From: Phlyctochytrium arcticum
Lineage: Eukaryota; Chytridiomycota; Chytridiomycetes; Chytridiales; Chytridiaceae
DNA length: 64,000 bases
Direction: 5' to 3'
Assembly (NCBI GenBank): GCA_025602905.1
Contig: JAHLKI010000040.1
Location: forward strand, 1 to 64,000
The notes below the pieces were generated by a model. The model was not told the origin of the DNA. It saw only the letters and a program-made list of their open reading frames with translations, and did not search any database. This document shows positions 7,173 to 34,250 of this stretch, one piece after another. Position numbers and translations under genes: made by a program. The stretch's first letter is position 1; each line of letters begins with the position of its first letter.

Positions 7173-7228
7173 TGTAACAGTGCATATTCCTTATCCCCTT
7201 AAGGGGATAAGGAATATGCACTGTTACA
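7173..7228. repeat. Terminal palindrome, left, 56 bp
   Basis: A perfect self-complementary palindrome centred between 7200 and 7201 (CCCCTTAAGGGG at the centre). It starts TGTAACAGTGCATATTCC and ends with the complement. The outermost flanking G/C pair (7172, 7229) also matches by chance or through the duplication. The same sequence forms the right end. Such an end could fold into a hairpin, or be the replicated form of a closed hairpin telomere. Confidence 0.95.
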
Positions 7229-7290
7229 CTGCCTGGTTTCCTATATGGCTTTTGACCTGGTCATGGGCTAAAATGCCTGAAATCGGGTGT

Positions 7291-7350
7291 ATGATACAAT
7301 TATATGATACAAGTATATGATACAATTGTATGATACAATTATATGATACA
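7291..7350. repeat. 13-bp tandem repeat, left arm
   Basis: Four and a half copies of ATGATACAATTAT-like units (7291, 7304, 7317, 7330, 7343). A mirror copy is at 31937-31996. Confidence 0.9.
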
Positions 7351-7367
7351 TTTCTATCCTATTAATA

Positions 7368-7477
7368 GAATTCTGACCAGATCCAAAATCGAGTCAAATC
7401 CGAGGGCAACCACCCACATCTTGAATCTTTTGACCAGATCCTGACCAGATTCAAAATCGAGTCGAATCCGAGGGCAA
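7368..7477. repeat. Direct repeat ~45 bp, left arm
   Basis: Two copies of a unit containing GACCAGAT(T/C)CAAAATCGAGTC and ATCCGAGGGCAAC, separated by a short spacer. Mirror copy at about 31810-31919. Confidence 0.8.
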
Positions 7478-7479
7478 CT

Positions 7480-8174
7480 ATGCACAGCTATGCACAGCTT
7501 TATGCACAGCTTTTTTCTTAAAAAAATGCAAAAAGCTTCATCCCCTTCCGAAAAAACACAGCTAACACAGCTAACACAGCTTTTTTCTTAGTTTGTAGAA
7601 AAAGTAATGTAAAGTTATAAAGTATAAAAAAGAAAGAAACCGATAAAAAAGCTGTGGTAGCTGTGTTAGCTGTGTTTTTTTGTTAGCGTGACATTCAAGT
7701 TGCGTATTTTTCAGCAAGAAGCTGTGCATAAAGCTGTGTTTTAGTTGTGTATTCTCACCCGCCATCTTGCCTTTGAATCTCACACTAATCTATCAGTATC
7801 ACTTCTGACTCTATGACGTCTGACATTTCGTAGCCAGATCTGGATAGGAAAGACTCTTGCGCCTCTTCATTGCGGCGTGATAATACACAACTTCAACAAA
7901 TAATACACAGCTATGCACAGCTTTATGCACAGCTTCTTGCTGAAAAATGCGCAACTTGAATTTTACGCTAACAAAAAAACACAGCTAACACAGCTACCAC
8001 AGCTTTTTTATCTGCTTCTTTCTTTTTTATACTTTATAACTTTACATTACTTTTTCTACAAACTCAGAAAAAAGCTGTGTTAGCTGTGTTAGCTGTGTTT
8101 TTTCGGAAGGGGACGAAGCTTTTTGCATTTTTTTAAGAAAAAAGCTGTGCATAAAGCTGTGCATAGCTGTGTTT
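7480..8174. repeat. Nested inverted repeat with CACAGCT iterons, candidate origin, left arm
   Basis: An internal inverted repeat pairs x with 15654-x: arms of roughly 270-280 bp (about 7480-7758 and 7878-8174) around a ~120-bp non-repeated centre. The arms carry about 23 copies of CACAGCT or AGCTGTG in clusters of two or three, alternating with A/T runs. No open frame of interest overlaps it. Clustered short repeats in an AT-rich palindrome close to the element end resemble replication origins bound by initiator proteins. The element encodes a helicase of the origin-binding-protein type, so an origin role is a reasonable inference. A few arm positions differ (for example CTTAG versus CTCAG), so this palindrome is older than the giant one. 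Confidence 0.7.
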
Positions 8175-8380
8175 TTTTGTAATAGCACACACATCCCATG
8201 ACTCATCACCCCTTAAGCCCAATGCTGGGAATAAGAAAATGACACTCTTCTTGGCCTTGTCACTTTGGATTGAACCTTCAACCTATTCGTGTATCATTCA
8301 TACATGTGTCGTACATGCATCGTACATTATTAAAAGCTTTCATATTACAATGTCTGTTTCGAATATATTCTATTTTTTGT
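8175..8380. other. Spacer between candidate origin and capsid gene
   Basis: AT-rich, with three short related words CATACATG, GTACATGC and GTACATTA near 8300-8325. It is the 3' flank of the capsid gene. Mirror at 30907-31112. Confidence 0.4.
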
Positions 8381-9631
8381 CTAGACTACATCGACTAGTG
8401 TCGAGATTGCGAGGGTGACATTTTCACAATATTGGAACACCATGCGACAGTTGGTACTAGGTTGCTGTCCTGCTTCGTGGATAGTCGTTATCTCTAAAAT
8501 ACTATCTGTGTTAACAAACGAAAGTGCAGCACTTGAAGCCTCATCAATACTTTGATAGGAATATCCAGCACTAAAAAACTTGTTCTGGTAGTCAGACAGT
8601 GAGGGTAAATCCATTTCACCTACTGCTGACAGGTAGTTGCCTTTAATCTGCGAAATGAGCAACGTTTCTGGATTGGTAGGACTATTGAGGAATCCAGTAG
8701 TACCATTCGGGGTCACTAGATTACCGATTTGGATGAACCACTCTCGAAGCCCTTTAGAAGATGATATTTCGTTCTTGTCAAGTGCAGGATTAGCAAGAAG
8801 GATTTCATCTGTAAACGAGTAATCGAACGCTTTCAAACTTCGAACACCATTCATGTGAATACGGTAAGTTTGACGAGTAGAACCATTACAAGCCAATTCT
8901 TGAGTACTATACCGCGTGTAATCGTAGTACAATTCTTTACCTGAGGCAATTGAGCGTTGAACAGCAAGTTGGAATTCCGGGGGTGGCTGGAACGTAGGCA
9001 CCATGATTGAAACTTCACTGAGTCTCACTTCATCAACTACATTGTTTTTGAATACCTGATTAGGATCACGCAGTACGATGTAGTAGTCTAACGTCTGATT
9101 GGGGAGCGCCCATATATGCATTAACTGATCATTATCCGGGTGGTGTAATCCTAGTGGAAGATGTGTTGAACAACCAGCCACGCTGCTCGTTTCAAAAATA
9201 TTCGTTACACCATATCCAGATAATGACTTTAAAAATGTCTTTTGCGTCTTTGGTAGATACTTATAGACAGTCTTTAGGTATTCTGGGTAATTATCGATCT
9301 TCTGCAATTCTTTCGAACCGATACAGACTTTTACCGATTGGATCAAACCTTCTAAACCGAGACTGGTATTGATGACTGTATTCCCACTAACTGGTTGGCC
9401 ATTCTTGAATACTTGTACTTTGAAATTTAATAGTAGATTCTGCAATTGCAGTGATCTAGATGCATCATGAAGTGAGATTTTAATTGGAGAGGCTTGTCTA
9501 TTCTTTGATGTGAATACGTCCTGACCGATAGGAAACCATTTGGAAATTGATTCTAGGCGAGGATTGGAATATGGTTGGGCAAACCTGGAGGAGCTAACTA
9601 ACCAGTTCTTCGGTACTTGAATATCGGTCAT
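8381..9631 (-). CDS. Probable major capsid protein, intact copy (left arm)
   Basis: 416 residues, no interruption. It starts MTDIQVPKNWLV and ends LAISTLVDVV. Composition is that of an all-beta structural protein, rich in S, T, N and aromatic residues, without signal peptide or membrane segment. It is the longest gene of a four-gene block that also holds a packaging-type ATPase. That context, and the existence of a diverged paralogue of the same length in the core, make a double jelly-roll major capsid protein the best guess. I cannot assign the fold from sequence alone. Conserved between the two paralogues are NWLV.S, QPYSNPR, PIGQ.VF, LQNLL, LGL..IIQS-like and HVWALP-like stretches. It is transcribed towards the element end, behind the coiled-coil and 214-aa genes. 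Confidence 0.7.
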   Translation of the reverse strand: MTDIQVPKNWLVSSSRFAQPYSNPRLESISKWFPIGQDVFTSKNRQASPIKISLHDASRSLQLQNLLLNFKVQVFKNGQPVSGNTVINTSLGLEGLIQSVKVCIGSKELQKIDNYPEYLKTVYKYLPKTQKTFLKSLSGYGVTNIFETSSVAGCSTHLPLGLHHPDNDQLMHIWALPNQTLDYYIVLRDPNQVFKNNVVDEVRLSEVSIMVPTFQPPPEFQLAVQRSIASGKELYYDYTRYSTQELACNGSTRQTYRIHMNGVRSLKAFDYSFTDEILLANPALDKNEISSSKGLREWFIQIGNLVTPNGTTGFLNSPTNPETLLISQIKGNYLSAVGEMDLPSLSDYQNKFFSAGYSYQSIDEASSAALSFVNTDSILEITTIHEAGQQPSTNCRMVFQYCENVTLAISTLVDVV

Positions 9632-9682
9632 GATTGATGCTTTTGGCGTTGTTTACTATATGAAGAAAAAATAAAAAAACAC

Positions 9683-10138
9683 TTATCCGAATATTCCTCC
9701 AAAGTCATCATTTGAAAATTGTGGAACAGGTGTTGCTTTTCGTGTAGCAACTGGTTTCTTTGGAGCAACATTCTTCTTTTTGGTATTCGATGTCGAAGAA
9801 CGTTCTGCTTTTTTAAGTGCTCTTTCTTCTTTCTTTTTTTGCTTTTCTTGTCTTTTTCTATCTTCTAATTCATTTACCAAATCATAGGCATCTTGAATAC
9901 GTTTCCTTTCGTATTGTATTCGTTTCTCTTCATCTCTTTTATGCTGCATTTCTCTTAATTGACGAGTCCGTTCCTTTTGCGCTTTCATCATATTCGCAGT
10001 CTGTTTCTTTTTCTTCACTTCTTGAATTGGCTCAGGTGAAGGTTCTTGTTCAATGGGTTGTTCAATTTCTTGTTCAATTTCTTCTTCAATGGGTTGTTCA
10101 GTTTCGATTGGTAGCTCATTTTCGTTATGGTCCGACAT
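9683..10138 (-). CDS. Basic coiled-coil protein, intact copy (left arm)
   Basis: 151 residues. The first 45 are acidic with repeated EQPIE/EQE words. The middle (about 50-115) is a very charged K/R/E/Q helix, probably coiled coil, and the end has basic AT-hook-like stretches (KKKNVAPKKP) before FSNDDFGGIFG. It lies 51 bp upstream of the capsid gene and 29 bp downstream of the 214-aa gene, in the same direction. A decayed paralogue sits in front of the second capsid gene in the core, so the pair is a conserved module. A scaffold or DNA-binding core protein is possible; the function is unknown. Confidence 0.75.
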   Translation of the reverse strand: MSDHNENELPIETEQPIEEEIEQEIEQPIEQEPSPEPIQEVKKKKQTANMMKAQKERTRQLREMQHKRDEEKRIQYERKRIQDAYDLVNELEDRKRQEKQKKKEERALKKAERSSTSNTKKKNVAPKKPVATRKATPVPQFSNDDFGGIFG

Positions 10139-10167
10139 TGTTAATTGTATTCTACAAAAAAAATAAT

Positions 10168-10812
10168 TTATTGAACATCAGCCGCGTCGTCGGCTATCAA
10201 TAAACGGACAGTTAATGGTGAATTTAACGCTATCTCTTCCCCTGTTTGCGAATCAATTAGATGAAATTCTACCTTGTTAATTGTATCGTTACAGGGTAAC
10301 CACTCCGAATCGTTTGTGAAGGTCACAACGTCCCCAAACGAATCTGGTACGATAGTAGCGATTACGGTACTTGCAGTGTCATTATAATCAGACAAGTATC
10401 GAACACTTGGTACGTTGATATTCGATGTCAATAGAATCGGATAGCTACCAGATAGATTCACACTATTTTTAAATGTGACAGTTTTTCCCATAGGAGATGC
10501 AGTTCGATTTGAATAACCAGATACAGAATATGCATTAGTTCCTTCATTACCTGGTAATATTTGAAAGTCTTTGTCCACAGCTGTTATAGTAATCCTTCGA
10601 GTGATCTGGTTGTAACTACTTGAATAAGCCTGACTCCCTGCTATAGTCATCGCAGCGGCAATAGATTGGGGGTAGTTGGACACATTATAATTACCAGGGG
10701 GAACACTGGCTTTAATAGTGTCGGTATTCCCGTCCTCTTTGAAAGCGAATACGTTATTGGTACTGTTGATCAAATCGTAGTCTTGAATAAAACTCACTGA
10801 CAATATTTTCAC
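10168..10812 (-). CDS. Probable minor capsid/penton-like protein, intact copy (left arm)
   Basis: About 214 residues from the GTG at 10812. Its second half (YPILLTSN, LSDYNDTASTVIATIVPDSFGD, then INKVEFHLIDSQTGEEI..NSPLTVRLLI) follows a pattern I associate with small beta-sandwich capsid proteins of polinton-like and adintovirus-like elements. No in-frame ATG exists upstream before a stop at the ATPase start, so initiation is unclear: a non-ATG start, or an upstream exon. Head-to-head with the ATPase gene (62 bp apart), so the two probably share a divergent promoter. A decayed paralogue shows the same arrangement. Penton identity is inference. Confidence 0.65.
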   Translation of the reverse strand: MKILSVSFIQDYDLINSTNNVFAFKEDGNTDTIKASVPPGNYNVSNYPQSIAAAMTIAGSQAYSSSYNQITRRITITAVDKDFQILPGNEGTNAYSVSGYSNRTASPMGKTVTFKNSVNLSGSYPILLTSNINVPSVRYLSDYNDTASTVIATIVPDSFGDVVTFTNDSEWLPCNDTINKVEFHLIDSQTGEEIALNSPLTVRLLIADDAADVQ

Positions 10813-10874
10813 AAATGAAACGTTACGCTTCTCTATATTATGTTGGCGTTTGTTATTATCTAAGTAATAAATAA

Positions 10875-11528
10875 ATGATTACGTACAAGGTTAAGCCTAT
10901 ATTCAATCCGAAAGCTATTGAAAGGGATCCTCGTATCCCTGAGCCGTTGCCGTCACACCCCATATGCCTTACATTATGCGCTCCACGCAAATCTGGTAAG
11001 ACAGGTTTGATCATGGGTTTGATTCAAGATGTTTATGCTAATAGATTCGACAAGATTATCATAATGTCAGATACCGTTCGTTATGACACGTGTATTCAAC
11101 AATTTGCCCAGACAACGAAACATAAAAATATTTATTTCAATGACGAAGTCTCAAATGATAGTATTTCCGCCATCGTGAAATACCAACAGGAGAATGATTG
11201 TGAGGATAGAATATTGTTGTTCATAGATGACGCGGCGGATGGTGCGAGATCAAAAGAATTGGCAAAAAAACTTGACCTTTTATATACAAAGGGTCGACAT
11301 TACAATATCAGTATTATAGTATGTTGCCAGTCGATAAAATCCCAACTAAGTGGTAAGCAAAAGGGTTGCACTACAGAATGGATTATATTCAAAAATAATA
11401 GGAAGGACTTCGACACGTTATCAGAGACCTTAGTAACATCCCATGCGACTAAAAAAGAAGTGCTTCAATATTTGATTGATTGTACTAGGACATATAGTTA
11501 CCGATTTACTAAGAGAACCTATAATTGA
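10875..11528 (+). CDS. Packaging-type P-loop ATPase, intact copy (left arm)
   Basis: 217 residues. A Walker A motif, APRKSGKTGL, lies near residue 37, and a Walker B-like RILLFIDDAAD near residue 115. A later QS-containing strand (IIVCCQSIKSQLS) fits the sensor region. Length and layout match the A32/FtsK-HerA family of genome-packaging ATPases found in polinton-like viruses, virophages and large DNA viruses, which pump DNA into preformed capsids. It is divergent from the 214-aa gene and precedes the satellite-like stretch at 11.6-12.0 kb. A shortened, motif-damaged paralogue lies at 12618-13028. Confidence 0.85.
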   Translation: MITYKVKPIFNPKAIERDPRIPEPLPSHPICLTLCAPRKSGKTGLIMGLIQDVYANRFDKIIIMSDTVRYDTCIQQFAQTTKHKNIYFNDEVSNDSISAIVKYQQENDCEDRILLFIDDAADGARSKELAKKLDLLYTKGRHYNISIIVCCQSIKSQLSGKQKGCTTEWIIFKNNRKDFDTLSETLVTSHATKKEVLQYLIDCTRTYSYRFTKRTYN

Positions 11529-11618
11529 ATTTTCTTACTAAGAGAACCTATAGTTCCCGTTACATCCTTCATAGCTTTGCCTTGTATCCAATGAAACGTG
11601 TCTTGGAACAGAATCCAA

Positions 11619-12035
11619 ACTGACATGCGCAGCAAATTTGTTATCGACAAACTTGACTCCCATTTCTGCATCGAACATGCACATCTCCAGCCTTCACCAG
11701 TCCATTTCTGACTCGCAAATCCCATCTGACGTGCGCAGCAAACTTCTTGACAAACTTGACTCCCATTTCCGCATCTCATCATGGCGATGATCATGCAAAC
11801 ATGCATTCACCATTTCTGACGCGCGCAGCAAAACTTGCCACATCATTCATAGAGATGCAACACATGCACAGACAAACATGACTCTTCAACAGAAAGTTAC
11901 AGAGTCCAAACTGACTCCCATTTCTGCATCTCATCATGCACACACTTGCAAACATGCACATCTCAGCCTTTACCATTTCTGATGTGCGCAGCAAAATTGT
12001 TATGACAAACTTCACTCCCACATCCATTCACATCA
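11619..12035. repeat. Imperfect ~100-130-bp tandem repeats, left arm
   Basis: Three to four degenerate copies share the words GTGCGCAGCAAA, GACAAACTTGACTCCCATTT and CTGCATCTCATCATG. There is no coding signal. Mirror copy at 27252-27668. Confidence 0.75.
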
Positions 12036-12181
12036 CAGATGCATGTTGGCGCAAAATTGACAGCATCCTGCTCAAAATATGTCGACAATCAGAAAGGCCG
12101 CAAGGCAATCGAAACTAATGTGCGCGAGGGATGTCTTGTTGTGGTCGCCTCGAATTGTATCTATGATATATATAAAACGAC

Positions 12182-12345
12182 ATCTTAAAAAAGTATCCCT
12201 TGTTCCACCAGAGGGGGGGTACTGTATATAGTAAATCTAGGCTGGTGGAACAACGGATACATTTGATCGAATCAAAAATCCTCTCTCTCCCTCTGCATCC
12301 CAGCCTTCCTCGTCGCCCAGAATCTGACCCCTCTTGTCAATTGAC
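12182..12345 (+). repeat. Repeat R, copy 1 (left arm), with hairpin
   Basis: A ~164-bp sequence present three times in the element. Near one end it can form a hairpin: TTGTTCCACCAG (12200-12211 region) pairs with CTGGTGGAACAA about 30 bp later, with a G-run and TATATA in the loop. It ends in CAATTG. The other copies are at 21845-22009 and 26942-27105, both inverted relative to this one. It may be a remnant of the ends of the older, second viral element. Confidence 0.85.
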
Positions 12346-12364
12346 ACTAAGCCACCGCCTGTTT

Positions 12365-12445
12365 TCGATCATGAAAGAGCATCATCTCCTGCATCATGTC
12401 CTGCATCATGTCAACGATGTTGTGCATCATGGCATGAGACGCAGA
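12365..12445. repeat. Short CTGCATCATGTC-type repeats, left arm
   Basis: Several tandem and near-tandem copies of TGCATCATG words. Mirror at 26842-26922. No coding signal. Confidence 0.6.
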
Positions 12446-12617
12446 GTTGGACTGATGGAGACAACAACAGACAGCTCACTCAGTTTGAACTTTTTGCAGT
12501 GACCATTTTTACATCACGATGCAAACAACATGATGCAAACGCTTAAAAAACTTCAACAGAGATGTATCTTTACACCACTCGATCATAACCAACTAAATAT
12601 ATACACAAATACAAACA

Positions 12618-13028
12618 TCATTCATTCAAAAACTCTAAATCAACCCCGGACCACCATTCCTCAGAGCTAAGGTCTTCAGTTGCCTGCCTCTGCCTTGCCT
12701 TTTTAGGTGCAGGAGGATCGGTGCGAACTATGGCCGCTATAGTGTCTTTGCTTACGTCATCCGTAAACCATATGTTCTTATGTCGAGTCTTTTTAGCTAG
12801 TTCTTGCATCAAGGCATCGAAGCATACCGTGTTTGACATGATGATGACTCTTGAAAAAACCTTCGTATAGACTTCGTTGATCAATCCGCATATAAGAGCT
12901 GATTTGCTGCTTTTGCAGGGTGCTATGACAGTGGTGCACAACGGAGGACTAGCAATGTCTTTAGGGATGCGAGAATTGATTTTTACGCCATGCTGCGGAA
13001 AGATGGGCCTAGGCTTATATGTCATCAT
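12618..13028 (-). pseudogene. Decayed packaging ATPase paralogue (left arm)
   Basis: 136 residues that align with the first two thirds of the intact ATPase (PRPIF, INSRIPKDI, IMSNTVCFDALMQELAKKT.HKNIWF.D.VS.DTIAAIV). The P-loop is damaged (APCKSSKSAL, with the key glycine and threonine replaced), and the Walker B half is lost and replaced by an unrelated basic/acidic tail. It belongs to the second capsid-gene set and is head-to-head with the second 214-aa paralogue, exactly as in the intact set. Confidence 0.8.
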
Positions 13029-13090
13029 TGAATGGTTTTTTCTCTTGAACCACTGGTATATCTCTAGTTAGTGGGAAAAAGTTCTTGCAA

Positions 13091-13803
13091 ATGTATCAAG
13101 AGCTCATTTATTGCAGTTCTAAGCGTAAATCGTTCCCAATCAGTACCAGAAGAGTAGAACAGCTGAAACTGTTGAACGTCTCTTTCCTCCAAGATTGGGA
13201 CTTGGTTTCCAGTGCCAACAATACTATTCTGTTTGCTGAGGCCGTCACTCCTAATGCTGTGAAAATAGCCAAAATCCCCTTTGGAAATTACATTATCAGC
13301 AATTTTGCATCTGCTGTCGTGACTAGTCTAACTCAAGCTGGGTCCCAGGCTTATACGTGTTCTTATGACTCAGTTTCCCGCAGGCTTAGCATTTCTGCTC
13401 CAGATGATTTCAAGATCATTACAAGGAAATCGCGGAACAACATCGTACATGCTGCTAGGCATGAGCGTGAAAGATGAGACTGGCTAAAAATCACACACTC
13501 AAGAATGTTGTTAATCTATCCGGTTCTCATCCAGTTTTCCTGTGTAGCAATTTGCTAGTTAATGGGACAAAGCTCTTAACAGATTTTTCCAACGAAAGCC
13601 AATCCATCTTGGCCGCCATCACTCCCGATAGCTTTGGCGATGTCATTTCATGGACAAATCCAAGTAGCGATTTCTTGCTTGTAGGTGACAATATCACCAA
13701 CATAAGCTTTTTCCTCGTCGACAGTTTGACATCTCAAGAGATTCTATTGAATGGGCCGCTAACAGTCAGTATAGCGATTCTTGATGATCTGCCCGATGTG
13801 TGA
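13091..13803 (+). pseudogene. Decayed minor capsid paralogue (left arm)
   Basis: Similar along its whole length to the intact 214-aa protein: LLNVSFLQDWDLVSSANN near the start, AGSQAYTCSYDSVSRRLSI in the middle, NLSGSHPVFLCSNLLVNGT and TPDSFGDVISWTN later. The frame changes at least twice between about 13425 and 13500, so no single protein can be made. The first ATG is at 13091. Directly downstream on the same strand is the start region of the primase-helicase. Confidence 0.8.
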
Positions 13804-13909
13804 CTAATATAACCTATAGTTGACAACCCATTACTGAGTTTATTCAAAGATTGACACGGATTGCATTATTTTGTTGCCACTTTGACCGAGCTACCCAAAG
13901 GGGATGTGC

Positions 13910-13927
13910 AAGTTTATCGATAAACTT
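13910..13927. promoter_or_regulatory. 18-bp palindrome upstream of helicase (left arm)
   Basis: AAGTTTATCGATAAACTT is perfectly self-complementary and lies 83 bp before the TATA-like box. It is a possible operator or initiator site. Mirror at 25360-25377. Confidence 0.5.
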
Positions 13928-14009
13928 TCCGTTCAAACTTCGACACGGTAAACCATGTTTGTCAATACGTTTGCACCTCAAAGTTGGCAACTCCGATGCC
14001 TCAGAAAAG

Positions 14010-14017
14010 TATAAAAG
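14010..14017 (+). promoter_or_regulatory. TATA box of truncated helicase copy (left arm)
   Basis: TATAAAAG, 190 bp before the first well-placed helicase ATG (14208). In this arm the gene it serves is cut off at 14292. Confidence 0.5.
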
Positions 14018-14207
14018 GGCCGGTGGTTTGTGCCAAATGGCATTCCACCATCATTTTCAACTGTGCATCATACACATTTTTTTTTGTTTGCACAATTGTA
14101 AACTACATCATTACTTTCTGCACATCTCTCATCCCAACAATGCCTCTGCCATTCCGTACCATTACTTACCTTGGACTCACTTGGACTGGCAACAACGCGG
14201 TCGAGCA

Positions 14208-14292
14208 ATGGATCACGTGATCCAGCAACTCGAGCCTGACGAGTTTCCAGTTGTTTCATTTACGACCAGGTACAAACAACTCTATGGGGCGG
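14208..14292 (+). pseudogene. Truncated 5' end of primase-helicase (left arm)
   Basis: The first 28 codons of the primase-helicase (MDHVIQQLEPDEFP...) are present in the left arm. The inverted repeat then ends after GGGGCGG and unrelated sequence with stops follows, so this copy is a promoter plus a stub. Confidence 0.85.
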
Positions 14293-14907
14293 AAGGTATT
14301 ATTTTTATATGCACATATGTCGTTGATTTCGATCGCAGTTCACCTTGCAAAGCCGCACGAATATCCTCATGATGCAAAACTTCATGATGACGGTGGTACT
14401 TCGTTGACGGAAAGAGATCCTCTCCAGCAGTATCTACCTTCTCACTGTCCTTCCGCATAGAGCAAGGGAAGCTCCTCCTGCGCTCCAGTCGTTGTTTCGG
14501 AGGATCTCTGTCCAGTACAGTAGTAATCATTCATTCATTGCTATCATCATCTCCACAGACCTCCACAAGGTACGAGAAGGCATATGGCCGGCAACGAATT
14601 GCGCAGCCTGTCCTATCCGCTTCACCTATTAGTGGTATGCCTAGGTTGCTTGTCTAGATGCATAAGCTTCTTCCGCAAATAATGAGCTGTACTTGATTTG
14701 ACATCTTCTTGTTTGTGTGAAAAAATGTAACTCCGCCAATTACGTAAAATTCTCCTACCCCACCCTCGACTTTAGGGCAATAGGGAAGAACCTGTAGTTG
14801 GAGGAGGATATCCTATTTGGTTATGGACAACGGCTGTCACCGTTGATCACACAATGTGTGGAGAAATATCATAACCTGTCACTTAGAAAGTTGCGCGGGG
14901 GCAGGAT
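14293..14907. other. Core DNA next to the left breakpoint
   Basis: Unique sequence without a confident gene. A minus-strand open stretch at 14282-14530 crosses the breakpoint. Its residues (LFPSTKYHRHHEV, HHEDIRAAL) look mildly protein-like but I cannot assign them. Confidence 0.35.
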
Positions 14908-15165
14908 TCACATCGTAGAACTGTGTTCCTGCACTTTTTGACGTATCCTCTTTCGGGAGGTTCTGGCCAAAGTGCCAGTACCTTTATGCAGAGCCTTCAC
15001 TTCCACGACAAGAAACTCGCTTTTGCTCTCGTTGGCAAAGACCAGATCCCGCACACCAAACTGCGTATAGTAGTCAATGACGTGCCATTCTCCGGCAACT
15101 AACACGGGGAAGCCGGACGGAGGGTTTGCCTTGATTGAATTGACCCAAGACTTTTTCGCCGACAT
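14908..15165 (-). CDS. PD-(D/E)XK-like nuclease fragment
   Basis: 85 residues from the ATG at 15165. The spacing RDLVF, then ten residues later FLVVEVKALHKGTG, fits the D...ExK core of the PD-(D/E)XK nuclease fold, with a hydrophobic strand carrying the E and K. The region GTLARTSRKRIRQKVQE is basic and helical, as often follows. Typical roles are restriction-like cleavage, repair or resolution of DNA branches. The length is short for the fold, so it could be one exon, a fragment, or a decayed gene. It stands alone on the minus strand of the core. Confidence 0.4.
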   Translation of the reverse strand: MSAKKSWVNSIKANPPSGFPVLVAGEWHVIDYYTQFGVRDLVFANESKSEFLVVEVKALHKGTGTLARTSRKRIRQKVQEHSSTM

Positions 15166-15745
15166 CTTACAGAAACTACTTGACCGTCAGCGTTGAAGCT
15201 ACCCAACAAATTTGCAACAGGACTTACTTAGTTGCTCAGCGATTTGACACACAAGAGACAGGAAAGGAGATCGGGGACCGCTACAACTAAATTGTGCTTA
15301 CCTGTGATGTCGCAAGCTCCATACTATGTTCTGGGTCGATCAGAGGTGGAGCATATAATTCTTGTGTCGAAACAGCAGAATCGCCTGGACCTAGTATTGA
15401 TGAAAATGTTTGTCAAAGTGATCGTAGGACGACAGCTTTAAGGTTACTTGACAAATCTCATCCCCTGTCATCGCCTCGAAAGTTCTTGCCATCGTCTCAA
15501 ACTATCTCCGCAAGTCCACCGTCTATATTCCAATATTCCTCGAAATCTGTGCAGAAATGATGAACGTCAGAAACATGACGCATGAACGACCGCGATAAGA
15601 AAACTTGTTGTACCTACTGCATGTCAAAGCTCCAAGCAAGGTCCCAGGTACCGTATATACAAAGTTTGTGATTCATATGTCGAAAAGTTCGAAATGGCTC
15701 TCTCAGTGCCTGGCCACTCCGGCCCACTCAGCCCAACCCTGAAAT
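15166..15745. other. Core DNA, no confident gene
   Basis: Two overlapping plus-strand frames (15232-15441, 15294-15560), the second serine/proline rich, without recognisable domains. Confidence 0.35.
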
Positions 15746-16054
15746 TTGGTGCCAAAAAAGTACATAAGCAAGTCCGACTGTCCGAACGCGATGCGCGAGA
15801 AATTGCTGGCCAAGCCAACGCGCGACCAAGAGAAAATCTCAGTTGATCTGCCTACAATGCGTTGCGAGAAATACTTCAACAAAACAGACCCTTCACGATG
15901 GTCCCTTCCTGGATTTTGTTCTTTCTACGACATGGGAGTTCAGGACGGTCGTTTGTTATTCATTGCAGAATTAAACAAGCGCAGGAACGGGCCTCACAAA
16001 GAGAGGGCCATCGCCCTCATCAAATCGGTAGGTGCACCACGAACAGACGAGTAA
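15746..16054 (+). CDS. Hypothetical protein fragment in viral core
   Basis: An open frame of 102 codons. Residues 35-95 (LPTMRCEKYFNKTDPSRW, SFYDMGVQDGRLLFIAELNKRR) look like real protein sequence. The upstream frame also reads plausibly (GAKKVHKQVRLSERDAREI) in a different phase, which hints at a frameshift or an intron near 15770-15830. I do not recognise the family. Confidence 0.35.
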   Translation: MVPKKYISKSDCPNAMREKLLAKPTRDQEKISVDLPTMRCEKYFNKTDPSRWSLPGFCSFYDMGVQDGRLLFIAELNKRRNGPHKERAIALIKSVGAPRTDE

Positions 16055-16475
16055 ATGGGGACGACGAGGCTAGGCATAAAACCCGCAGAAGCCGGCCGCG
16101 GCCACTAGTGCTCTGGTTTGCTGTATCGTGGAGGGCCTGTTGGTTACTGCACCTGCACCAACCCGCCTGAAGCCACCAGACCGAAAAGAGCCGGCCAAAC
16201 CCCCGTTTCTGCCGCCGCCTGTCGCACACTTCTTGGTCAACGGGCCCCGGTGTTTACCCAGCTGAACTATCAGCTCAGCTTAGAGAGGTATCCGTAGTTC
16301 TAATCATGAGCGTAAACGGATGGAGTAAAGCCCTCTTTTTCAGCCCCTGGCCCCCAGTTTCGAAAGATCTGCGCGCTATGCTCTCGTTGGCTGATCAATG
16401 ATCAACAAGCAGTGGTGTCTCGGGTCCCCAAAGGTTTCTTGAAGCCGACATGTTGCTCACGTTCGCCTACTACAG

Positions 16476-21258: not shown

Positions 21259-21305
21259 AACCCCGCATCGCCTAAGTCCCAACCCTTTAGACACCGTTCC
21301 GCGAG

Positions 21306-21491: not shown

Positions 21492-21844
21492 AACGATGTA
21501 ATGGCCGTTGGCTTGGGGTTAACATTTTGTTGCGTTCGTCGAAGCATAGCTCGGTCCGCGATTTTATGAGCCATAGCCCACGCTTGTTTATGATTCGTCA
21601 CTTTGACTTGTACACCTCCCTTACCAGCGTTCCCATCTCAAAATCTTGTAACACTTGGTTGAATATATCCTCCCACTCGCTGCTATGACCTGGTTCCATT
21701 GAAGCGTCTTTATGTCTTCCTCTCTTTGTGTAAGAGTAGTAACAAAAACTTTTTGCAGTGATGTTCACCTGCGTTTGAGACTTGTATATGTACTATTTGT
21801 CTCAATGATGTGACGTGGCTTAGTTGGCTAGGAGACATTGTCAA
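21492..21844. other. Core DNA, no gene recognised
   Basis: Nothing identifiable between the small zinc protein and repeat R copy 2. Confidence 0.4.
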
Positions 21845-22009
21845 TCAATTGACAAGAGGACTCAGATTCTGGGCGACGAGGAAGGCTGGGATGTAGAGAG
21901 AGAGAGAGGATTTTTGATTCGATCAAATGTATCCGTTGTTCCACCAGCCTAGATTTACTATATACAGTACCCCCCCTCTGGTGGAACAAGGGATACTTTT
22001 TTAAGATGT
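21845..22009 (-). repeat. Repeat R, copy 2 (core)
   Basis: About 165 bp, near-identical to the arm copies with a few substitutions (for example an AGAGAGAG run and GGACTCAG instead of GGGTCAG). Weaker similarity continues to about 22080. It lies just beyond the 3' end of the primase-helicase gene, in the same orientation as the right-arm copy. Confidence 0.85.
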
Positions 22010-22082
22010 AACTTGTAGATGCAACTTTGTTTATGAAAAGTAGATACAATTGAAAATGACCATAAGAACATCCCCCTCGCCC

Positions 22083-25079: not shown

Positions 25080-25269
25080 TGCTCGACCGCGTTGTTGCCA
25101 GTCCAAGTGAGTCCAAGGTAAGTAATGGTACGGAATGGCAGAGGCATTGTTGGGATGAGAGATGTGCAGAAAGTAATGATGTAGTTTACAATTGTGCAAA
25201 CAAAAAAAAATGTGTATGATGCACAGTTGAAAATGATGGTGGAATGCCATTTGGCACAAACCACCGGCC

Positions 25270-25277
25270 CTTTTATA
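25270..25277 (-). promoter_or_regulatory. TATA box of primase-helicase
   Basis: TATAAAAG on the minus strand, 191 bp upstream of the chosen ATG. It decides against the upstream in-frame start at 25436. Confidence 0.6.
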
Positions 25278-25359
25278 CTTTTCTGAGGCATCGGAGTTGC
25301 CAACTTTGAGGTGCAAACGTATTGACAAACATGGTTTACCGTGTCGAAGTTTGAACGGA

Positions 25360-25377
25360 AAGTTTATCGATAAACTT
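25360..25377. promoter_or_regulatory. 18-bp palindrome upstream of primase-helicase (right arm)
   Basis: Perfect palindrome AAGTTTATCGATAAACTT, mirror of 13910-13927. Possible binding site for a dimeric regulator. Confidence 0.5.
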
Positions 25378-25483
25378 GCACATCCCCTTTGGGTAGCTCG
25401 GTCAAAGTGGCAACAAAATAATGCAATCCGTGTCAATCTTTGAATAAACTCAGTAATGGGTTGTCAACTATAGGTTATATTAG

Positions 25484-26196
25484 TCACACATCGGGCAGAT
25501 CATCAAGAATCGCTATACTGACTGTTAGCGGCCCATTCAATAGAATCTCTTGAGATGTCAAACTGTCGACGAGGAAAAAGCTTATGTTGGTGATATTGTC
25601 ACCTACAAGCAAGAAATCGCTACTTGGATTTGTCCATGAAATGACATCGCCAAAGCTATCGGGAGTGATGGCGGCCAAGATGGATTGGCTTTCGTTGGAA
25701 AAATCTGTTAAGAGCTTTGTCCCATTAACTAGCAAATTGCTACACAGGAAAACTGGATGAGAACCGGATAGATTAACAACATTCTTGAGTGTATGATTTT
25801 TAGCCAGTCTCATCTTTCACGCTCATGCCTAGCAGCATGTACGATGTTGTTCCGCGATTTCCTTGTAATGATCTTGAAATCATCTGGAGCAGAAATGCTA
25901 AGCCTGCGGGAAACTGAGTCATAAGAACACGTATAAGCCTGGGACCCAGCTTGAGTTAGACTAGTCACGACAGCAGATGCAAAATTGCTGATAATGTAAT
26001 TTCCAAAGGGGATTTTGGCTATTTTCACAGCATTAGGAGTGACGGCCTCAGCAAACAGAATAGTATTGTTGGCACTGGAAACCAAGTCCCAATCTTGGAG
26101 GAAAGAGACGTTCAACAGTTTCAGCTGTTCTACTCTTCTGGTACTGATTGGGAACGATTTACGCTTAGAACTGCAATAAATGAGCTCTTGATACAT
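25484..26196 (-). pseudogene. Decayed minor capsid paralogue (right arm)
   Basis: Mirror copy with the same frame changes (between about 25787 and 25862). It is followed on the same strand by the intact primase-helicase. Confidence 0.8.
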
Positions 26197-26258
26197 TTGC
26201 AAGAACTTTTTCCCACTAACTAGAGATATACCAGTGGTTCAAGAGAAAAAACCATTCA

Positions 26259-26669
26259 ATGATGACATATAAGCCTAGGCCCATCTTTCCGCAGCATGGC
26301 GTAAAAATCAATTCTCGCATCCCTAAAGACATTGCTAGTCCTCCGTTGTGCACCACTGTCATAGCACCCTGCAAAAGCAGCAAATCAGCTCTTATATGCG
26401 GATTGATCAACGAAGTCTATACGAAGGTTTTTTCAAGAGTCATCATCATGTCAAACACGGTATGCTTCGATGCCTTGATGCAAGAACTAGCTAAAAAGAC
26501 TCGACATAAGAACATATGGTTTACGGATGACGTAAGCAAAGACACTATAGCGGCCATAGTTCGCACCGATCCTCCTGCACCTAAAAAGGCAAGGCAGAGG
26601 CAGGCAACTGAAGACCTTAGCTCTGAGGAATGGTGGTCCGGGGTTGATTTAGAGTTTTTGAATGAATGA
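26259..26669 (+). pseudogene. Decayed packaging ATPase paralogue (right arm)
   Basis: Identical mirror copy of 12618-13028, with the same P-loop damage and missing Walker B half. Confidence 0.8.
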
Positions 26670-26941
26670 TGTTTGTATTTGTGTATATATTTAGTTGGTT
26701 ATGATCGAGTGGTGTAAAGATACATCTCTGTTGAAGTTTTTTAAGCGTTTGCATCATGTTGTTTGCATCGTGATGTAAAAATGGTCACTGCAAAAAGTTC
26801 AAACTGAGTGAGCTGTCTGTTGTTGTCTCCATCAGTCCAACTCTGCGTCTCATGCCATGATGCACAACATCGTTGACATGATGCAGGACATGATGCAGGA
26901 GATGATGCTCTTTCATGATCGAAAACAGGCGGTGGCTTAGT

Positions 26942-27105
26942 GTCAATTGACAAGAGGGGTCAGATTCTGGGCGACGAGGAAGGCTGGGATGCAGAGGGAG
27001 AGAGAGGATTTTTGATTCGATCAAATGTATCCGTTGTTCCACCAGCCTAGATTTACTATATACAGTACCCCCCCTCTGGTGGAACAAGGGATACTTTTTT
27101 AAGAT
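26942..27105 (-). repeat. Repeat R, copy 3 (right arm)
   Basis: Mirror of copy 1. With copy 2 it forms direct repeats around the block primase-helicase, decayed 214-aa paralogue and decayed ATPase. Confidence 0.85.
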
Positions 27106-27251
27106 GTCGTTTTATATATATCATAGATACAATTCGAGGCGACCACAACAAGACATCCCTCGCGCACATTAGTTTCGATTGCCTTGCGGCCTTTCTGATT
27201 GTCGACATATTTTGAGCAGGATGCTGTCAATTTTGCGCCAACATGCATCTG

Positions 27252-27668
27252 TGATGTGAATGGATGTGGGAGTGAAGTTTGTCATAACAATTTTGCTGCG
27301 CACATCAGAAATGGTAAAGGCTGAGATGTGCATGTTTGCAAGTGTGTGCATGATGAGATGCAGAAATGGGAGTCAGTTTGGACTCTGTAACTTTCTGTTG
27401 AAGAGTCATGTTTGTCTGTGCATGTGTTGCATCTCTATGAATGATGTGGCAAGTTTTGCTGCGCGCGTCAGAAATGGTGAATGCATGTTTGCATGATCAT
27501 CGCCATGATGAGATGCGGAAATGGGAGTCAAGTTTGTCAAGAAGTTTGCTGCGCACGTCAGATGGGATTTGCGAGTCAGAAATGGACTGGTGAAGGCTGG
27601 AGATGTGCATGTTCGATGCAGAAATGGGAGTCAAGTTTGTCGATAACAAATTTGCTGCGCATGTCAGT
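27252..27668. repeat. Imperfect ~100-130-bp tandem repeats, right arm
   Basis: Mirror copy of 11619-12035. Short open frames in it are rich in M, C and V, as expected of chance reading of the repeat, and are not called as genes. Confidence 0.75.
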
Positions 27669-27758
27669 TTGGATTCTGTTCCAAGACACGTTTCATTGGA
27701 TACAAGGCAAAGCTATGAAGGATGTAACGGGAACTATAGGTTCTCTTAGTAAGAAAAT

Positions 27759-28412
27759 TCAATTATAGGTTCTCTTAGTAAATCGGTAACTATATGTCCT
27801 AGTACAATCAATCAAATATTGAAGCACTTCTTTTTTAGTCGCATGGGATGTTACTAAGGTCTCTGATAACGTGTCGAAGTCCTTCCTATTATTTTTGAAT
27901 ATAATCCATTCTGTAGTGCAACCCTTTTGCTTACCACTTAGTTGGGATTTTATCGACTGGCAACATACTATAATACTGATATTGTAATGTCGACCCTTTG
28001 TATATAAAAGGTCAAGTTTTTTTGCCAATTCTTTTGATCTCGCACCATCCGCCGCGTCATCTATGAACAACAATATTCTATCCTCACAATCATTCTCCTG
28101 TTGGTATTTCACGATGGCGGAAATACTATCATTTGAGACTTCGTCATTGAAATAAATATTTTTATGTTTCGTTGTCTGGGCAAATTGTTGAATACACGTG
28201 TCATAACGAACGGTATCTGACATTATGATAATCTTGTCGAATCTATTAGCATAAACATCTTGAATCAAACCCATGATCAAACCTGTCTTACCAGATTTGC
28301 GTGGAGCGCATAATGTAAGGCATATGGGGTGTGACGGCAACGGCTCAGGGATACGAGGATCCCTTTCAATAGCTTTCGGATTGAATATAGGCTTAACCTT
28401 GTACGTAATCAT
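27759..28412 (-). CDS. Packaging-type P-loop ATPase, intact copy (right arm)
   Basis: Identical mirror copy of the left-arm ATPase, divergent from the 214-aa gene at 28475. Confidence 0.85.
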   Translation of the reverse strand: MITYKVKPIFNPKAIERDPRIPEPLPSHPICLTLCAPRKSGKTGLIMGLIQDVYANRFDKIIIMSDTVRYDTCIQQFAQTTKHKNIYFNDEVSNDSISAIVKYQQENDCEDRILLFIDDAADGARSKELAKKLDLLYTKGRHYNISIIVCCQSIKSQLSGKQKGCTTEWIIFKNNRKDFDTLSETLVTSHATKKEVLQYLIDCTRTYSYRFTKRTYN

Positions 28413-28474
28413 TTATTTATTACTTAGATAATAACAAACGCCAACATAATATAGAGAAGCGTAACGTTTCATTT

Positions 28475-29119
28475 GTGAAAATATTGTCAGTGAGTTTTAT
28501 TCAAGACTACGATTTGATCAACAGTACCAATAACGTATTCGCTTTCAAAGAGGACGGGAATACCGACACTATTAAAGCCAGTGTTCCCCCTGGTAATTAT
28601 AATGTGTCCAACTACCCCCAATCTATTGCCGCTGCGATGACTATAGCAGGGAGTCAGGCTTATTCAAGTAGTTACAACCAGATCACTCGAAGGATTACTA
28701 TAACAGCTGTGGACAAAGACTTTCAAATATTACCAGGTAATGAAGGAACTAATGCATATTCTGTATCTGGTTATTCAAATCGAACTGCATCTCCTATGGG
28801 AAAAACTGTCACATTTAAAAATAGTGTGAATCTATCTGGTAGCTATCCGATTCTATTGACATCGAATATCAACGTACCAAGTGTTCGATACTTGTCTGAT
28901 TATAATGACACTGCAAGTACCGTAATCGCTACTATCGTACCAGATTCGTTTGGGGACGTTGTGACCTTCACAAACGATTCGGAGTGGTTACCCTGTAACG
29001 ATACAATTAACAAGGTAGAATTTCATCTAATTGATTCGCAAACAGGGGAAGAGATAGCGTTAAATTCACCATTAACTGTCCGTTTATTGATAGCCGACGA
29101 CGCGGCTGATGTTCAATAA
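28475..29119 (+). CDS. Probable minor capsid/penton-like protein, intact copy (right arm)
   Basis: Identical mirror copy. The open frame extends upstream to about 28409 without any ATG; 28475 is a GTG and may not be the true start. Confidence 0.65.
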   Translation: MKILSVSFIQDYDLINSTNNVFAFKEDGNTDTIKASVPPGNYNVSNYPQSIAAAMTIAGSQAYSSSYNQITRRITITAVDKDFQILPGNEGTNAYSVSGYSNRTASPMGKTVTFKNSVNLSGSYPILLTSNINVPSVRYLSDYNDTASTVIATIVPDSFGDVVTFTNDSEWLPCNDTINKVEFHLIDSQTGEEIALNSPLTVRLLIADDAADVQ

Positions 29120-29148
29120 ATTATTTTTTTTGTAGAATACAATTAACA

Positions 29149-29604
29149 ATGTCGGACCATAACGAAAATGAGCTACCAATCGAAACTGAACAACCCATTG
29201 AAGAAGAAATTGAACAAGAAATTGAACAACCCATTGAACAAGAACCTTCACCTGAGCCAATTCAAGAAGTGAAGAAAAAGAAACAGACTGCGAATATGAT
29301 GAAAGCGCAAAAGGAACGGACTCGTCAATTAAGAGAAATGCAGCATAAAAGAGATGAAGAGAAACGAATACAATACGAAAGGAAACGTATTCAAGATGCC
29401 TATGATTTGGTAAATGAATTAGAAGATAGAAAAAGACAAGAAAAGCAAAAAAAGAAAGAAGAAAGAGCACTTAAAAAAGCAGAACGTTCTTCGACATCGA
29501 ATACCAAAAAGAAGAATGTTGCTCCAAAGAAACCAGTTGCTACACGAAAAGCAACACCTGTTCCACAATTTTCAAATGATGACTTTGGAGGAATATTCGG
29601 ATAA
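29149..29604 (+). CDS. Basic coiled-coil protein, intact copy (right arm)
   Basis: Identical mirror copy of the 151-aa protein, between the 214-aa gene and the capsid gene. Confidence 0.75.
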   Translation: MSDHNENELPIETEQPIEEEIEQEIEQPIEQEPSPEPIQEVKKKKQTANMMKAQKERTRQLREMQHKRDEEKRIQYERKRIQDAYDLVNELEDRKRQEKQKKKEERALKKAERSSTSNTKKKNVAPKKPVATRKATPVPQFSNDDFGGIFG

Positions 29605-29655
29605 GTGTTTTTTTATTTTTTCTTCATATAGTAAACAACGCCAAAAGCATCAATC

Positions 29656-30906
29656 ATGACCGATATTCAAGTACCGAAGAACTGGTTAGTTAGCTCCTCC
29701 AGGTTTGCCCAACCATATTCCAATCCTCGCCTAGAATCAATTTCCAAATGGTTTCCTATCGGTCAGGACGTATTCACATCAAAGAATAGACAAGCCTCTC
29801 CAATTAAAATCTCACTTCATGATGCATCTAGATCACTGCAATTGCAGAATCTACTATTAAATTTCAAAGTACAAGTATTCAAGAATGGCCAACCAGTTAG
29901 TGGGAATACAGTCATCAATACCAGTCTCGGTTTAGAAGGTTTGATCCAATCGGTAAAAGTCTGTATCGGTTCGAAAGAATTGCAGAAGATCGATAATTAC
30001 CCAGAATACCTAAAGACTGTCTATAAGTATCTACCAAAGACGCAAAAGACATTTTTAAAGTCATTATCTGGATATGGTGTAACGAATATTTTTGAAACGA
30101 GCAGCGTGGCTGGTTGTTCAACACATCTTCCACTAGGATTACACCACCCGGATAATGATCAGTTAATGCATATATGGGCGCTCCCCAATCAGACGTTAGA
30201 CTACTACATCGTACTGCGTGATCCTAATCAGGTATTCAAAAACAATGTAGTTGATGAAGTGAGACTCAGTGAAGTTTCAATCATGGTGCCTACGTTCCAG
30301 CCACCCCCGGAATTCCAACTTGCTGTTCAACGCTCAATTGCCTCAGGTAAAGAATTGTACTACGATTACACGCGGTATAGTACTCAAGAATTGGCTTGTA
30401 ATGGTTCTACTCGTCAAACTTACCGTATTCACATGAATGGTGTTCGAAGTTTGAAAGCGTTCGATTACTCGTTTACAGATGAAATCCTTCTTGCTAATCC
30501 TGCACTTGACAAGAACGAAATATCATCTTCTAAAGGGCTTCGAGAGTGGTTCATCCAAATCGGTAATCTAGTGACCCCGAATGGTACTACTGGATTCCTC
30601 AATAGTCCTACCAATCCAGAAACGTTGCTCATTTCGCAGATTAAAGGCAACTACCTGTCAGCAGTAGGTGAAATGGATTTACCCTCACTGTCTGACTACC
30701 AGAACAAGTTTTTTAGTGCTGGATATTCCTATCAAAGTATTGATGAGGCTTCAAGTGCTGCACTTTCGTTTGTTAACACAGATAGTATTTTAGAGATAAC
30801 GACTATCCACGAAGCAGGACAGCAACCTAGTACCAACTGTCGCATGGTGTTCCAATATTGTGAAAATGTCACCCTCGCAATCTCGACACTAGTCGATGTA
30901 GTCTAG
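29656..30906 (+). CDS. Probable major capsid protein, intact copy (right arm)
   Basis: Identical 416-aa mirror copy of the left-arm gene. It follows the coiled-coil gene by about 50 bp on the same strand, in the order 214-aa protein, coiled coil, capsid, which suggests co-regulated late structural genes. Confidence 0.7.
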   Translation: MTDIQVPKNWLVSSSRFAQPYSNPRLESISKWFPIGQDVFTSKNRQASPIKISLHDASRSLQLQNLLLNFKVQVFKNGQPVSGNTVINTSLGLEGLIQSVKVCIGSKELQKIDNYPEYLKTVYKYLPKTQKTFLKSLSGYGVTNIFETSSVAGCSTHLPLGLHHPDNDQLMHIWALPNQTLDYYIVLRDPNQVFKNNVVDEVRLSEVSIMVPTFQPPPEFQLAVQRSIASGKELYYDYTRYSTQELACNGSTRQTYRIHMNGVRSLKAFDYSFTDEILLANPALDKNEISSSKGLREWFIQIGNLVTPNGTTGFLNSPTNPETLLISQIKGNYLSAVGEMDLPSLSDYQNKFFSAGYSYQSIDEASSAALSFVNTDSILEITTIHEAGQQPSTNCRMVFQYCENVTLAISTLVDVV

Positions 30907-31112
30907 ACAAAAAATAGAATATATTCGAAACAGACATTGTAATATGAAAGCTTTTAATAATGTACGATGCATGTACGACACATGTATGAATGATACACGA
31001 ATAGGTTGAAGGTTCAATCCAAAGTGACAAGGCCAAGAAGAGTGTCATTTTCTTATTCCCAGCATTGGGCTTAAGGGGTGATGAGTCATGGGATGTGTGT
31101 GCTATTACAAAA

Positions 31113-31807
31113 AAACACAGCTATGCACAGCTTTATGCACAGCTTTTTTCTTAAAAAAATGCAAAAAGCTTCGTCCCCTTCCGAAAAAACACAGCTAACA
31201 CAGCTAACACAGCTTTTTTCTGAGTTTGTAGAAAAAGTAATGTAAAGTTATAAAGTATAAAAAAGAAAGAAGCAGATAAAAAAGCTGTGGTAGCTGTGTT
31301 AGCTGTGTTTTTTTGTTAGCGTAAAATTCAAGTTGCGCATTTTTCAGCAAGAAGCTGTGCATAAAGCTGTGCATAGCTGTGTATTATTTGTTGAAGTTGT
31401 GTATTATCACGCCGCAATGAAGAGGCGCAAGAGTCTTTCCTATCCAGATCTGGCTACGAAATGTCAGACGTCATAGAGTCAGAAGTGATACTGATAGATT
31501 AGTGTGAGATTCAAAGGCAAGATGGCGGGTGAGAATACACAACTAAAACACAGCTTTATGCACAGCTTCTTGCTGAAAAATACGCAACTTGAATGTCACG
31601 CTAACAAAAAAACACAGCTAACACAGCTACCACAGCTTTTTTATCGGTTTCTTTCTTTTTTATACTTTATAACTTTACATTACTTTTTCTACAAACTAAG
31701 AAAAAAGCTGTGTTAGCTGTGTTAGCTGTGTTTTTTCGGAAGGGGATGAAGCTTTTTGCATTTTTTTAAGAAAAAAGCTGTGCATAAAGCTGTGCATAGC
31801 TGTGCAT
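31113..31807. repeat. Nested inverted repeat with CACAGCT iterons, candidate origin, right arm
   Basis: Mirror copy of the left-arm structure at 7480-8174, with the same clusters of CACAGCT/AGCTGTG. Confidence 0.7.
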
Positions 31808-31936
31808 AGTTGCCCTCGGATTCGACTCGATTTTGAATCTGGTCAGGATCTGGTCAAAAGATTCAAGATGTGGGTGGTTGCCCTCGGATTTGACTCGATT
31901 TTGGATCTGGTCAGAATTCTATTAATAGGATAGAAA

Positions 31937-31996
31937 TGTATCATATAATTGTATCATACAATTGTATCATATACTTGTATCATATAATTGTATCAT
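31937..31996. repeat. 13-bp tandem repeat, right arm
   Basis: Inverted copy of the left-arm array, units reading ATAATTGTATCAT. Confidence 0.9.
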
Positions 31997-32058
31997 ACAC
32001 CCGATTTCAGGCATTTTAGCCCATGACCAGGTCAAAAGCCATATAGGAAACCAGGCAG

Positions 32059-32114
32059 TGTAACAGTGCATATTCCTTATCCCCTTAAGGGGATAAGGAA
32101 TATGCACTGTTACA
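32059..32114. repeat. Terminal palindrome, right, 56 bp
   Basis: Mirror copy of the left terminal palindrome, centred between 32086 and 32087, with the same CCCCTTAAGGGG centre. It is followed directly by the right copy of the host duplication. Confidence 0.95.
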
Positions 32115-34238: not shown

Positions 34239-34250
34239 TAGGAGCGAGCG

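Follow-up and report, generated by a model that had tools for sequence, protein, structure and literature searches.

How does a linear viral genome come to carry the same genes at both of its ends, in mirror image? The question is raised by an element in the chytrid fungus Phlyctochytrium arcticum, found in the window analyzed here (the whole stretch of 64,000 nucleotides, positions 1-64,000 of contig JAHLKI010000040.1, hereafter C40, of assembly GCA_025602905.1). The original prediction had described an endogenous virus-like element in the form of a giant palindrome, and the mirror-image arms and viral genes reported below bear this out. The palindromic ends suggest that the viral chromosome ended in hairpins and that a lost end was rebuilt by copying the other end. 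We consider it probable that the element is a helper-dependent symmetric recombinant, which arose when a telomere-bearing end was copied onto the opposite end before integration; we infer the pre-integration origin and the helper dependence from the evidence that follows, and the hairpin form of the ends is predicted from their sequence.

The element spans 7173-32114 (24,942 bp) and begins and ends with TG...CA; both ends had been predicted correctly to the single base. When each position x was paired with 39287-x, the whole of the left arm (7173-14292, 7,120 bp) matched the right arm (24995-32114, 7,120 bp), as predicted, with a single exception at position 13494, which is C in the left arm and T in the mirrored right arm. 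Outside the arms, identity under the same pairing was only 0.22-0.27 in 300-base blocks. An inverted-repeat finder placed the arms at 7172-14292 and 24995-32115 with 10,702 nt in between, the extra outer base being part of the target duplication; the single-copy core accordingly occupies 14293-24994 (10,702 bp).

The element is flanked by a 5-bp target-site duplication, CCCTG (7168-7172 and 32115-32119), and splits one genomic copy of a MULE-like transposase gene (6925-7176 and 32112-32369). When the flanks were joined with one CCCTG, an open frame was restored, all 166 residues of which matched 14 genomic places at 99%. Uninterrupted copies of the target gene contained a single CCCTG in all four cases fetched, with 1-2 differences over ~240 bp. 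The duplication and the empty site thus indicate that the 24,942 bp were inserted as one unit, in agreement with the prediction of a single integrated element. Two separate, opposite insertions of a 7-kb element around other DNA would also leave two inverted copies; however, the target is duplicated at the outermost ends only, and taking out all 24.9 kb leaves the target gene uninterrupted, so that this explanation is hardly credible. An assembly artefact, such as a palindromic long read, was considered as well. A palindromic read would, however, mirror the flanks, whereas here the flanks differ, the 5-bp duplication is present and the target gene is restored; further, two more giant-armed elements occur in the genome. 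We regard an artefact as very improbable, and it is because of the empty site that both of these explanations are set aside.

At its outer tip, each arm has a perfect 56-bp palindrome with a 28-bp stem and no loop (7173-7228 and 32059-32114; 58 bp with one further base per side), a putative hairpin telomere that the original prediction did not mention. These were the only two palindromes in the window with a stem of at least 14 bp and a loop of at most 5 nt; when the window was shuffled 20 times by mononucleotides, stems reached 11 bp at most. Across the family of related elements in this genome, 25 termini (the two window ends and 23 others) had mismatch-free stems of 23-34 bp that represent at least 13 distinct sequences, and the palindromes spanned 47-68 bp. 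A first scan solved 21 of the 23 ends entered into it, with loops of 0, 1 or (C1) 3 nt; a second scan, allowing loops up to 6 nt, added both ends of the C23 element (30-bp stem, 5-nt loop), C45:20147 (30-bp stem) and C1:1308256 (31-bp stem). Since the stems are perfect in at least 13 sequences, the two halves of the palindromes must have changed together. No palindrome was found at three truncated ends, that of C46 and the right end of each of the two C1 elements.

Eight ends form two groups of four, each group sharing one stem sequence; the single unpaired center base was T in four of the eight and A in the other four. As judged from these sequences, the T and A forms of otherwise identical ends are flip/flop isomers of putative hairpin telomeres. 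Opposite isomers occurred at the two ends of one element in three of the five informative cases (C26, C41 and C18), and the same isomer in C23 and C6. Note that the window palindrome has no unpaired base and that flip/flop is read from its relatives. All eight elements with two intact ends had a 5-bp target duplication, versus 6 bp for Maverick/Polinton elements (C40, CCCTG; C26, GTAAC; C41 and C15, GACAT; C4, CCGTT; C6, TTCCC; C23, GTTAC; C18, GTCAG). The ends of C18 are 11% apart, yet they share their duplication, which indicates that hybrid-ended molecules existed before integration. Copies of the 47-bp outer palindrome of C6 (94-100% identical) were found at 15 further places where the neighboring sequence does not match, suggesting that the palindrome may be a conserved recognition site. 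Some of these copies pair 22-24 kb apart (C44, C24 and C13) and are probably further element ends. A palindrome 85% like the terminal one of the window lies inside the C4 element (C4:361613-361671), perhaps as a trace of a nested end.

Both ends were mapped in 10 related elements, seven of which have ordinary terminal inverted repeats (TIRs; ~0.6-1.1 kb measured) and three, including that in the window, giant arms. The search began from A- and B-type TIRs (C6 was found through helicase copies instead), and the count is therefore a lower bound that is biased to these types. The TIRs of the ordinary elements measured 1,038 bp in C41 (99.8% identical), 1,081 bp in C26 (96.7%), about 1,070 bp in C18 (177965-203193; 88.7%), at least 598 bp in the element at C1:1736776, the right end of which is truncated, 1,118 bp in the 26.8-kb element of C15 (no mismatch in 210291-210420 or 210400-211408), at least 833 bp in C4 (100%) and at least 811 bp in C23 (393495-420542; 99.9%). 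Simple-arm versions, which the original prediction had proposed to look for, thus exist, and it was right that the window arms are far longer than usual TIRs (7,120 bp versus 1,118, 1,038 and 1,081 bp in C15, C41 and C26). As far as the accessible text of the respective reports goes, TIRs of EMALE virophages measure 0.2-2.3 kb (PMC8547959), and those of polinton-like viruses of cryptophytes were filtered at 100 bp to 8 kb (PMC12220804), so that long TIRs may exist there.

In all seven ordinary elements, the gene for the major capsid protein (MCP) was located at one side only. An integrase was present in five of them, that of C41 with stops. The C15 element, which serves as our reference, codes for an rve integrase with a chromodomain (PF00665, 4.2e-14), an MCP, an ATPase, a penton-like protein, a response-regulator domain, a primase-helicase (Prim-Pol and D5_N) and a 1,888-aa fiber-like protein with a weak match to adenovirus fiber. 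Besides the rve integrase, it codes for a 255-aa tyrosine-recombinase-like protein with four relatives, one of which is named integrase; there was no Pfam match to a recombinase, and we take its motifs (RR, LRK, MGHS and NYT) to be those of a tyrosine recombinase. This protein could be the resolvase of the hairpin telomeres. A-type capsid loci at C45:15401-19636 and C23:415732-419967, on separate contigs, are 99.93% identical over 4.2 kb.

The layout of the window element had been called exceptional. A search of the rest of the genome, which the original prediction had recommended, revealed two further giant-armed elements, in C1 and C6, and the layout is therefore not exceptional in this genome. 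In C1, 1324571-1330556 mirrors 1337395-1343380 (arms of 5,986 bp, two mismatches); the left end extends by 232 bp, up to a terminal palindrome that is intact, and the right end is truncated. The core of this element contains frames that resemble a MULE transposase by eye, with one weak match at 1330870, and only the MCP and the coiled-coil protein, among 15 C15 proteins, match the element. The C6 element (97321-133912) has the duplication TTCCC, 47-bp outer palindromes and arms of about 7.27 kb (99.8-99.9%). Its arms contain a 64-bp palindrome and the 1.1-kb TIR of an inner element (103482-127750), and they end at the inner edge of that TIR; its helicase gene is cut at residue 171 against the inner element on both sides. 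The stretch C15:722001-730700 repeats the left side of C6 at 99.9%, and because the flank is repeated as well, we regard it as a duplication or an allelic contig end rather than as a fourth case. A symmetric pair of MCP genes at C4:889531/910695 was rejected as a recent giant palindrome, its outer flanks being only 84.8% alike.

The genes of the window element indicate where its parts came from. From the outer end inward, each arm carries an A-type MCP gene (left, 8381-9631, minus strand; right, 29656-30906, plus strand), a gene for a charged coiled-coil-like protein, labelled by eye (9683-10138, minus; 29149-29604, plus), a gene for a putative penton-like protein (10168-10812, minus; 28475-29119, plus) and a gene for a packaging ATPase (10875-11528, plus; 27759-28412, minus; Pox_A32, PF04665, E = 5.9e-9). 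The penton-like protein had no Pfam or PHROG match, and we presume its identity from its position. The ATPase is 90% identical to that of C15 over residues 1-210 of 236, and about the last 26 residues are gone, the C-terminus being lost at about 11492-11501. Similarity of the arm to A-type copies at the DNA level ends at ~11490, within the ATPase gene. Further in, each arm holds a broken second ATPase gene of the D type, limited to residues 1-102 of 236 (12618-13028, minus; 26259-26669, plus), and a broken D-type penton-like gene in two frames (13085-13803, plus; 25484-26202, minus). Thus, the capsid module of the arms, which had been thought complete, is not.

The core contains a broken D-type MCP gene in three pieces with two TGA codons (19464-20682, plus) and a fragment of a fiber-like protein gene (18137-18664, minus), the product of which is 43% identical to residues 353-492 of the 1,888-aa protein of C15. 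Stop codons in long-read assemblies can be errors, as the portion of the EMALE report available to us discusses (PMC8547959). When 15 C15 proteins were compared with the window element, only the MCP, coiled-coil protein, penton-like protein, ATPase and the piece of fiber matched. The element is thus a mosaic to which two or more viruses contributed: a C15-type capsid end flanks the decayed second virus on either side. None of the 37 integrase hits in the genome (E <= 1e-20; 99 of 186 candidates scored) falls within the element, and tblastn detected no integrase in it at E <= 1e-3. We therefore filed it as a defective derivative rather than as a complete member of the polinton-like/MELD viruses. 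Each arm also holds a smaller inverted repeat of 256 bp (97%) with a 177-bp spacer (7483-8171 and 31116-31804), and similar pieces occur at C4:357.1k and 360.0k. A 165-bp repeat (98%) is present in the arms (12180-12344 and 26943-27107) and in the core beside the 3' end of the helicase gene (21845-22009).

The two arm/core junctions differ, and the difference reveals which arm was copied. An intact gene for a 998-aa primase/superfamily-2 helicase (22083-25079, minus) starts within the right arm and ends in the core. The left junction cuts this gene after codon 28-29, leaving a truncated copy of codons 1-29 at 14208-14294 (plus). PF02399 is present in relatives of the helicase, one of which bears the name S2H of a Powellomyces MELD virus; identity to the S2H of 'Powellomyces chytrid fungus MELD virus 2' was 47% over 72% of the length. 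Across the right junction (24567-25208), the C6 arms and their copy at C15:728944-729591 were continuous (86% and 77% identity), and at the protein level, related helicases, for example those of C27, C7 and C45:3475 (query from residue 2), were uninterrupted through codon 28-29. Because the right junction is continuous and the left one cuts the helicase gene, we take the right arm to be the original, from which the left arm was copied. One-sided copying of an end, as implied by the predicted fold-back or strand switch, fits this polarity; a fold-back during replication goes beyond what the junctions tell.

Homologous recombination between ordinary TIRs before integration is another route to long arms: an extension of one end would be carried over to the other by crossing over, and in the window element the inner TIR would later be lost. 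C6 fits this, as its arms take in the 64-bp palindrome of the inner element together with its 1.1-kb TIR and reach just to the inner edge of the latter, and it is better explained by such recombination than by fold-back. At the window junction, however, neither an inner TIR nor a second palindrome was found, and the junction falls within coding sequence. For the window element, we consider this route unlikely.

It is also conceivable that an ordinary-TIR provirus was integrated and that one of its arms was later converted by the other in the host genome, through gene conversion or TIR-using break-induced replication. The TIRs would supply the outer homology, and the decayed D-type genes are common to both arms. 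However, such conversion requires a second, non-homologous junction at 14292, and there are three such elements; the foreign cores and missing integrases of C40 and C1 fit better with selection for two telomeres before integration. Further, the arms are as alike (one difference in 7,120 bp) as the repeats of the youngest ordinary insertions (none in 1,118 bp in C15). Conversion in the host genome is, in our judgment, quite improbable.

We thus favor copying of an end before integration and propose the following course of events. The starting point would be a family of linear, integrating, capsid-coding viruses with TIRs, terminal palindromes, an rve integrase and 5-bp duplications. A telomere-bearing, C15-like capsid end of ~4.3 kb, broken within the ATPase gene, would have been joined to the remnant of a second virus with a primase-helicase; the resulting mosaic is seen in the gene content, and the manner of joining is conjectural. 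Then 7.1 kb of the right end would have been copied onto the broken left end, with the switch point in helicase codon 28-29. The polarity of this step is evident from the junctions; the copying itself may have proceeded by fold-back priming or by break-induced copying during replication. Finally, the product with two telomeres would have been replicated and integrated by helper proteins. Its insertion into the MULE-like transposase gene is documented by the empty site, and a supply of proteins in trans is likely because the integrase is missing from the element. C6 indicates a second route, in which crossing over would take place within ordinary TIRs.

Several observations weigh against this reading. 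The evidence comes from integrated copies in the assembly. At the DNA level, C6 and C15 amount to one witness to the right junction, since each is a copy of the other. A look for microhomology revealed none beyond the left junction of the window element, nor any where arm and core meet in C40 and C1. The D-type genes are broken in the same way in both arms (except at 13494), which implies that the decay preceded the likeness of the arms; if they decayed while already in the host genome, the arms would have to have been converted after integration. In C6, homologous recombination between TIRs can also yield such arms, and its inner element contains an integrase-like frame (118694-119872, 33%, one TGA), so that not all three giant-armed elements have lost the integrase. 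A mapped TIR end in C3, at about 1364000, yielded no palindrome within the scanned sequence. Further, the model of the MCP, from which the double-jelly-roll assignment of the left copy derives, was of low confidence (mean pLDDT 45.5, TM-scores <0.31). Foldseek searches with this weak model gave 15 PDB matches at E <= 0.001, 14 of which were PBCV-1/iridovirus capsid or poxvirus D13-type scaffold chains and the 15th complement C5, and the top BFVD match was an MCP N-terminal-domain protein. By sequence, the PDB yielded no hits for the MCP and two at chance level for the helicase. Four relatives of the MCP were found among 5.8 billion proteins, all from Phlyctochytrium arcticum; the assembly (31.48 Mb, 91 contigs) contained 60 matches, window copies included.

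A broader proposal is more tentative, and we put it forward with some doubt. Chytrid fungi may host an integrating, capsid-coding virus lineage with hairpin telomeres (palindromes of 47-68 bp in flip/flop), in which the tyrosine-recombinase-like protein of C15 might serve as telomere resolvase and the rve integrase would insert the unfolded ends. DNA that captures one telomere-bearing end would become symmetric by end copying, and giant-armed satellites with foreign cores would thus recur and shuffle viral and host genes.

Elsewhere in the window, a Ty3-type long terminal repeat (LTR) retrotransposon adjoins the element (33990-39315); its LTRs of 240 bp are 100% identical, and it carries gag and pol with a chromodomain. 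An inverted, diverged pair of sequences (76-87%) is located at 39294-40457 and 42393-43501, and one of the two reads as a MYND zinc-finger gene. There were no Rfam matches within the 64-kb window.

Protein-primed ends are the usual expectation for polinton-like viruses. The C15 element has 17 open reading frames (ORFs) of 130 aa or more; no protein-primed DNA polymerase B was found among the 9 of these that were scanned or among 10 window ORFs. In a literature search that lay outside most subscription journals, there was, among the papers listed, no earlier report of hairpin or palindromic ends in polinton-like viruses or of viruses of Phlyctochytrium arcticum (two papers that mention this fungus along with viruses deal with tumor microbiota), and such ends seem to be new for polinton-like viruses of fungi that bear an integrase. 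A large protist survey excluded Fungi by design, according to the part of it that we cite (PMC10120064). The present results point to hairpin telomeres in such integrase-bearing viruses, and since many copies with different palindromes occur in one genome, the idea is directly testable. Further, with its readable direction and empty site, the element shows how, in a linear virus genome, an end that was lost can be restored from the opposite one, as has been inferred for truncated virophages in the accessible sections of one report (PMC8547959).

The element resembles polinton-like/MELD viruses (Preplasmiviricota) in its MCP, A32-type ATPase, primase-helicase, TIRs and integration in a microbial eukaryote; the likeness in the rve integrase lies in its relative in C15, not in the window element. 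It differs from them in its terminal palindromes, with flip/flop isomers in the family, and in arms of 6-7 kb. Hairpin telomeres are found in PBCV-1, African swine fever virus and parvoviruses. Poxviruses, Kaumoebavirus and Tyrannovirus, as portrayed in the source texts open to us, share with the present family terminal hairpins or palindromes, flip/flop and long TIRs; flip/flop ends are described for vaccinia (PMC8956199) and TIRs of about 100 kb with terminal hairpins for Tyrannovirus (PMC12747079). In contrast to these viruses, the ends described here are read from integrated copies with a 5-bp duplication, in a family with an rve integrase. Symmetric recombinants or mirror-image duplications of an end have reportedly arisen in adenovirus 12 (SYREC) and in white-pock variants of poxviruses, in which, as here, one end of a linear genome is said to have been copied onto the other with foreign DNA in the middle. 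The present cases, unlike those, are natural and integrated, and three occur in one fungal genome. Copying of one end onto the other is also the likeness to the palindromic deletion plasmid of kalilo, so far as its available description goes (Vierula and Bertrand, 1992). Truncated EMALE virophages, in the accessible account of them, are similar in that TIRs were rebuilt after the loss of an end (PMC8547959); those elements are short, whereas here the rebuilt repeat is 7.1 kb long and the direction in which it was copied can be read.

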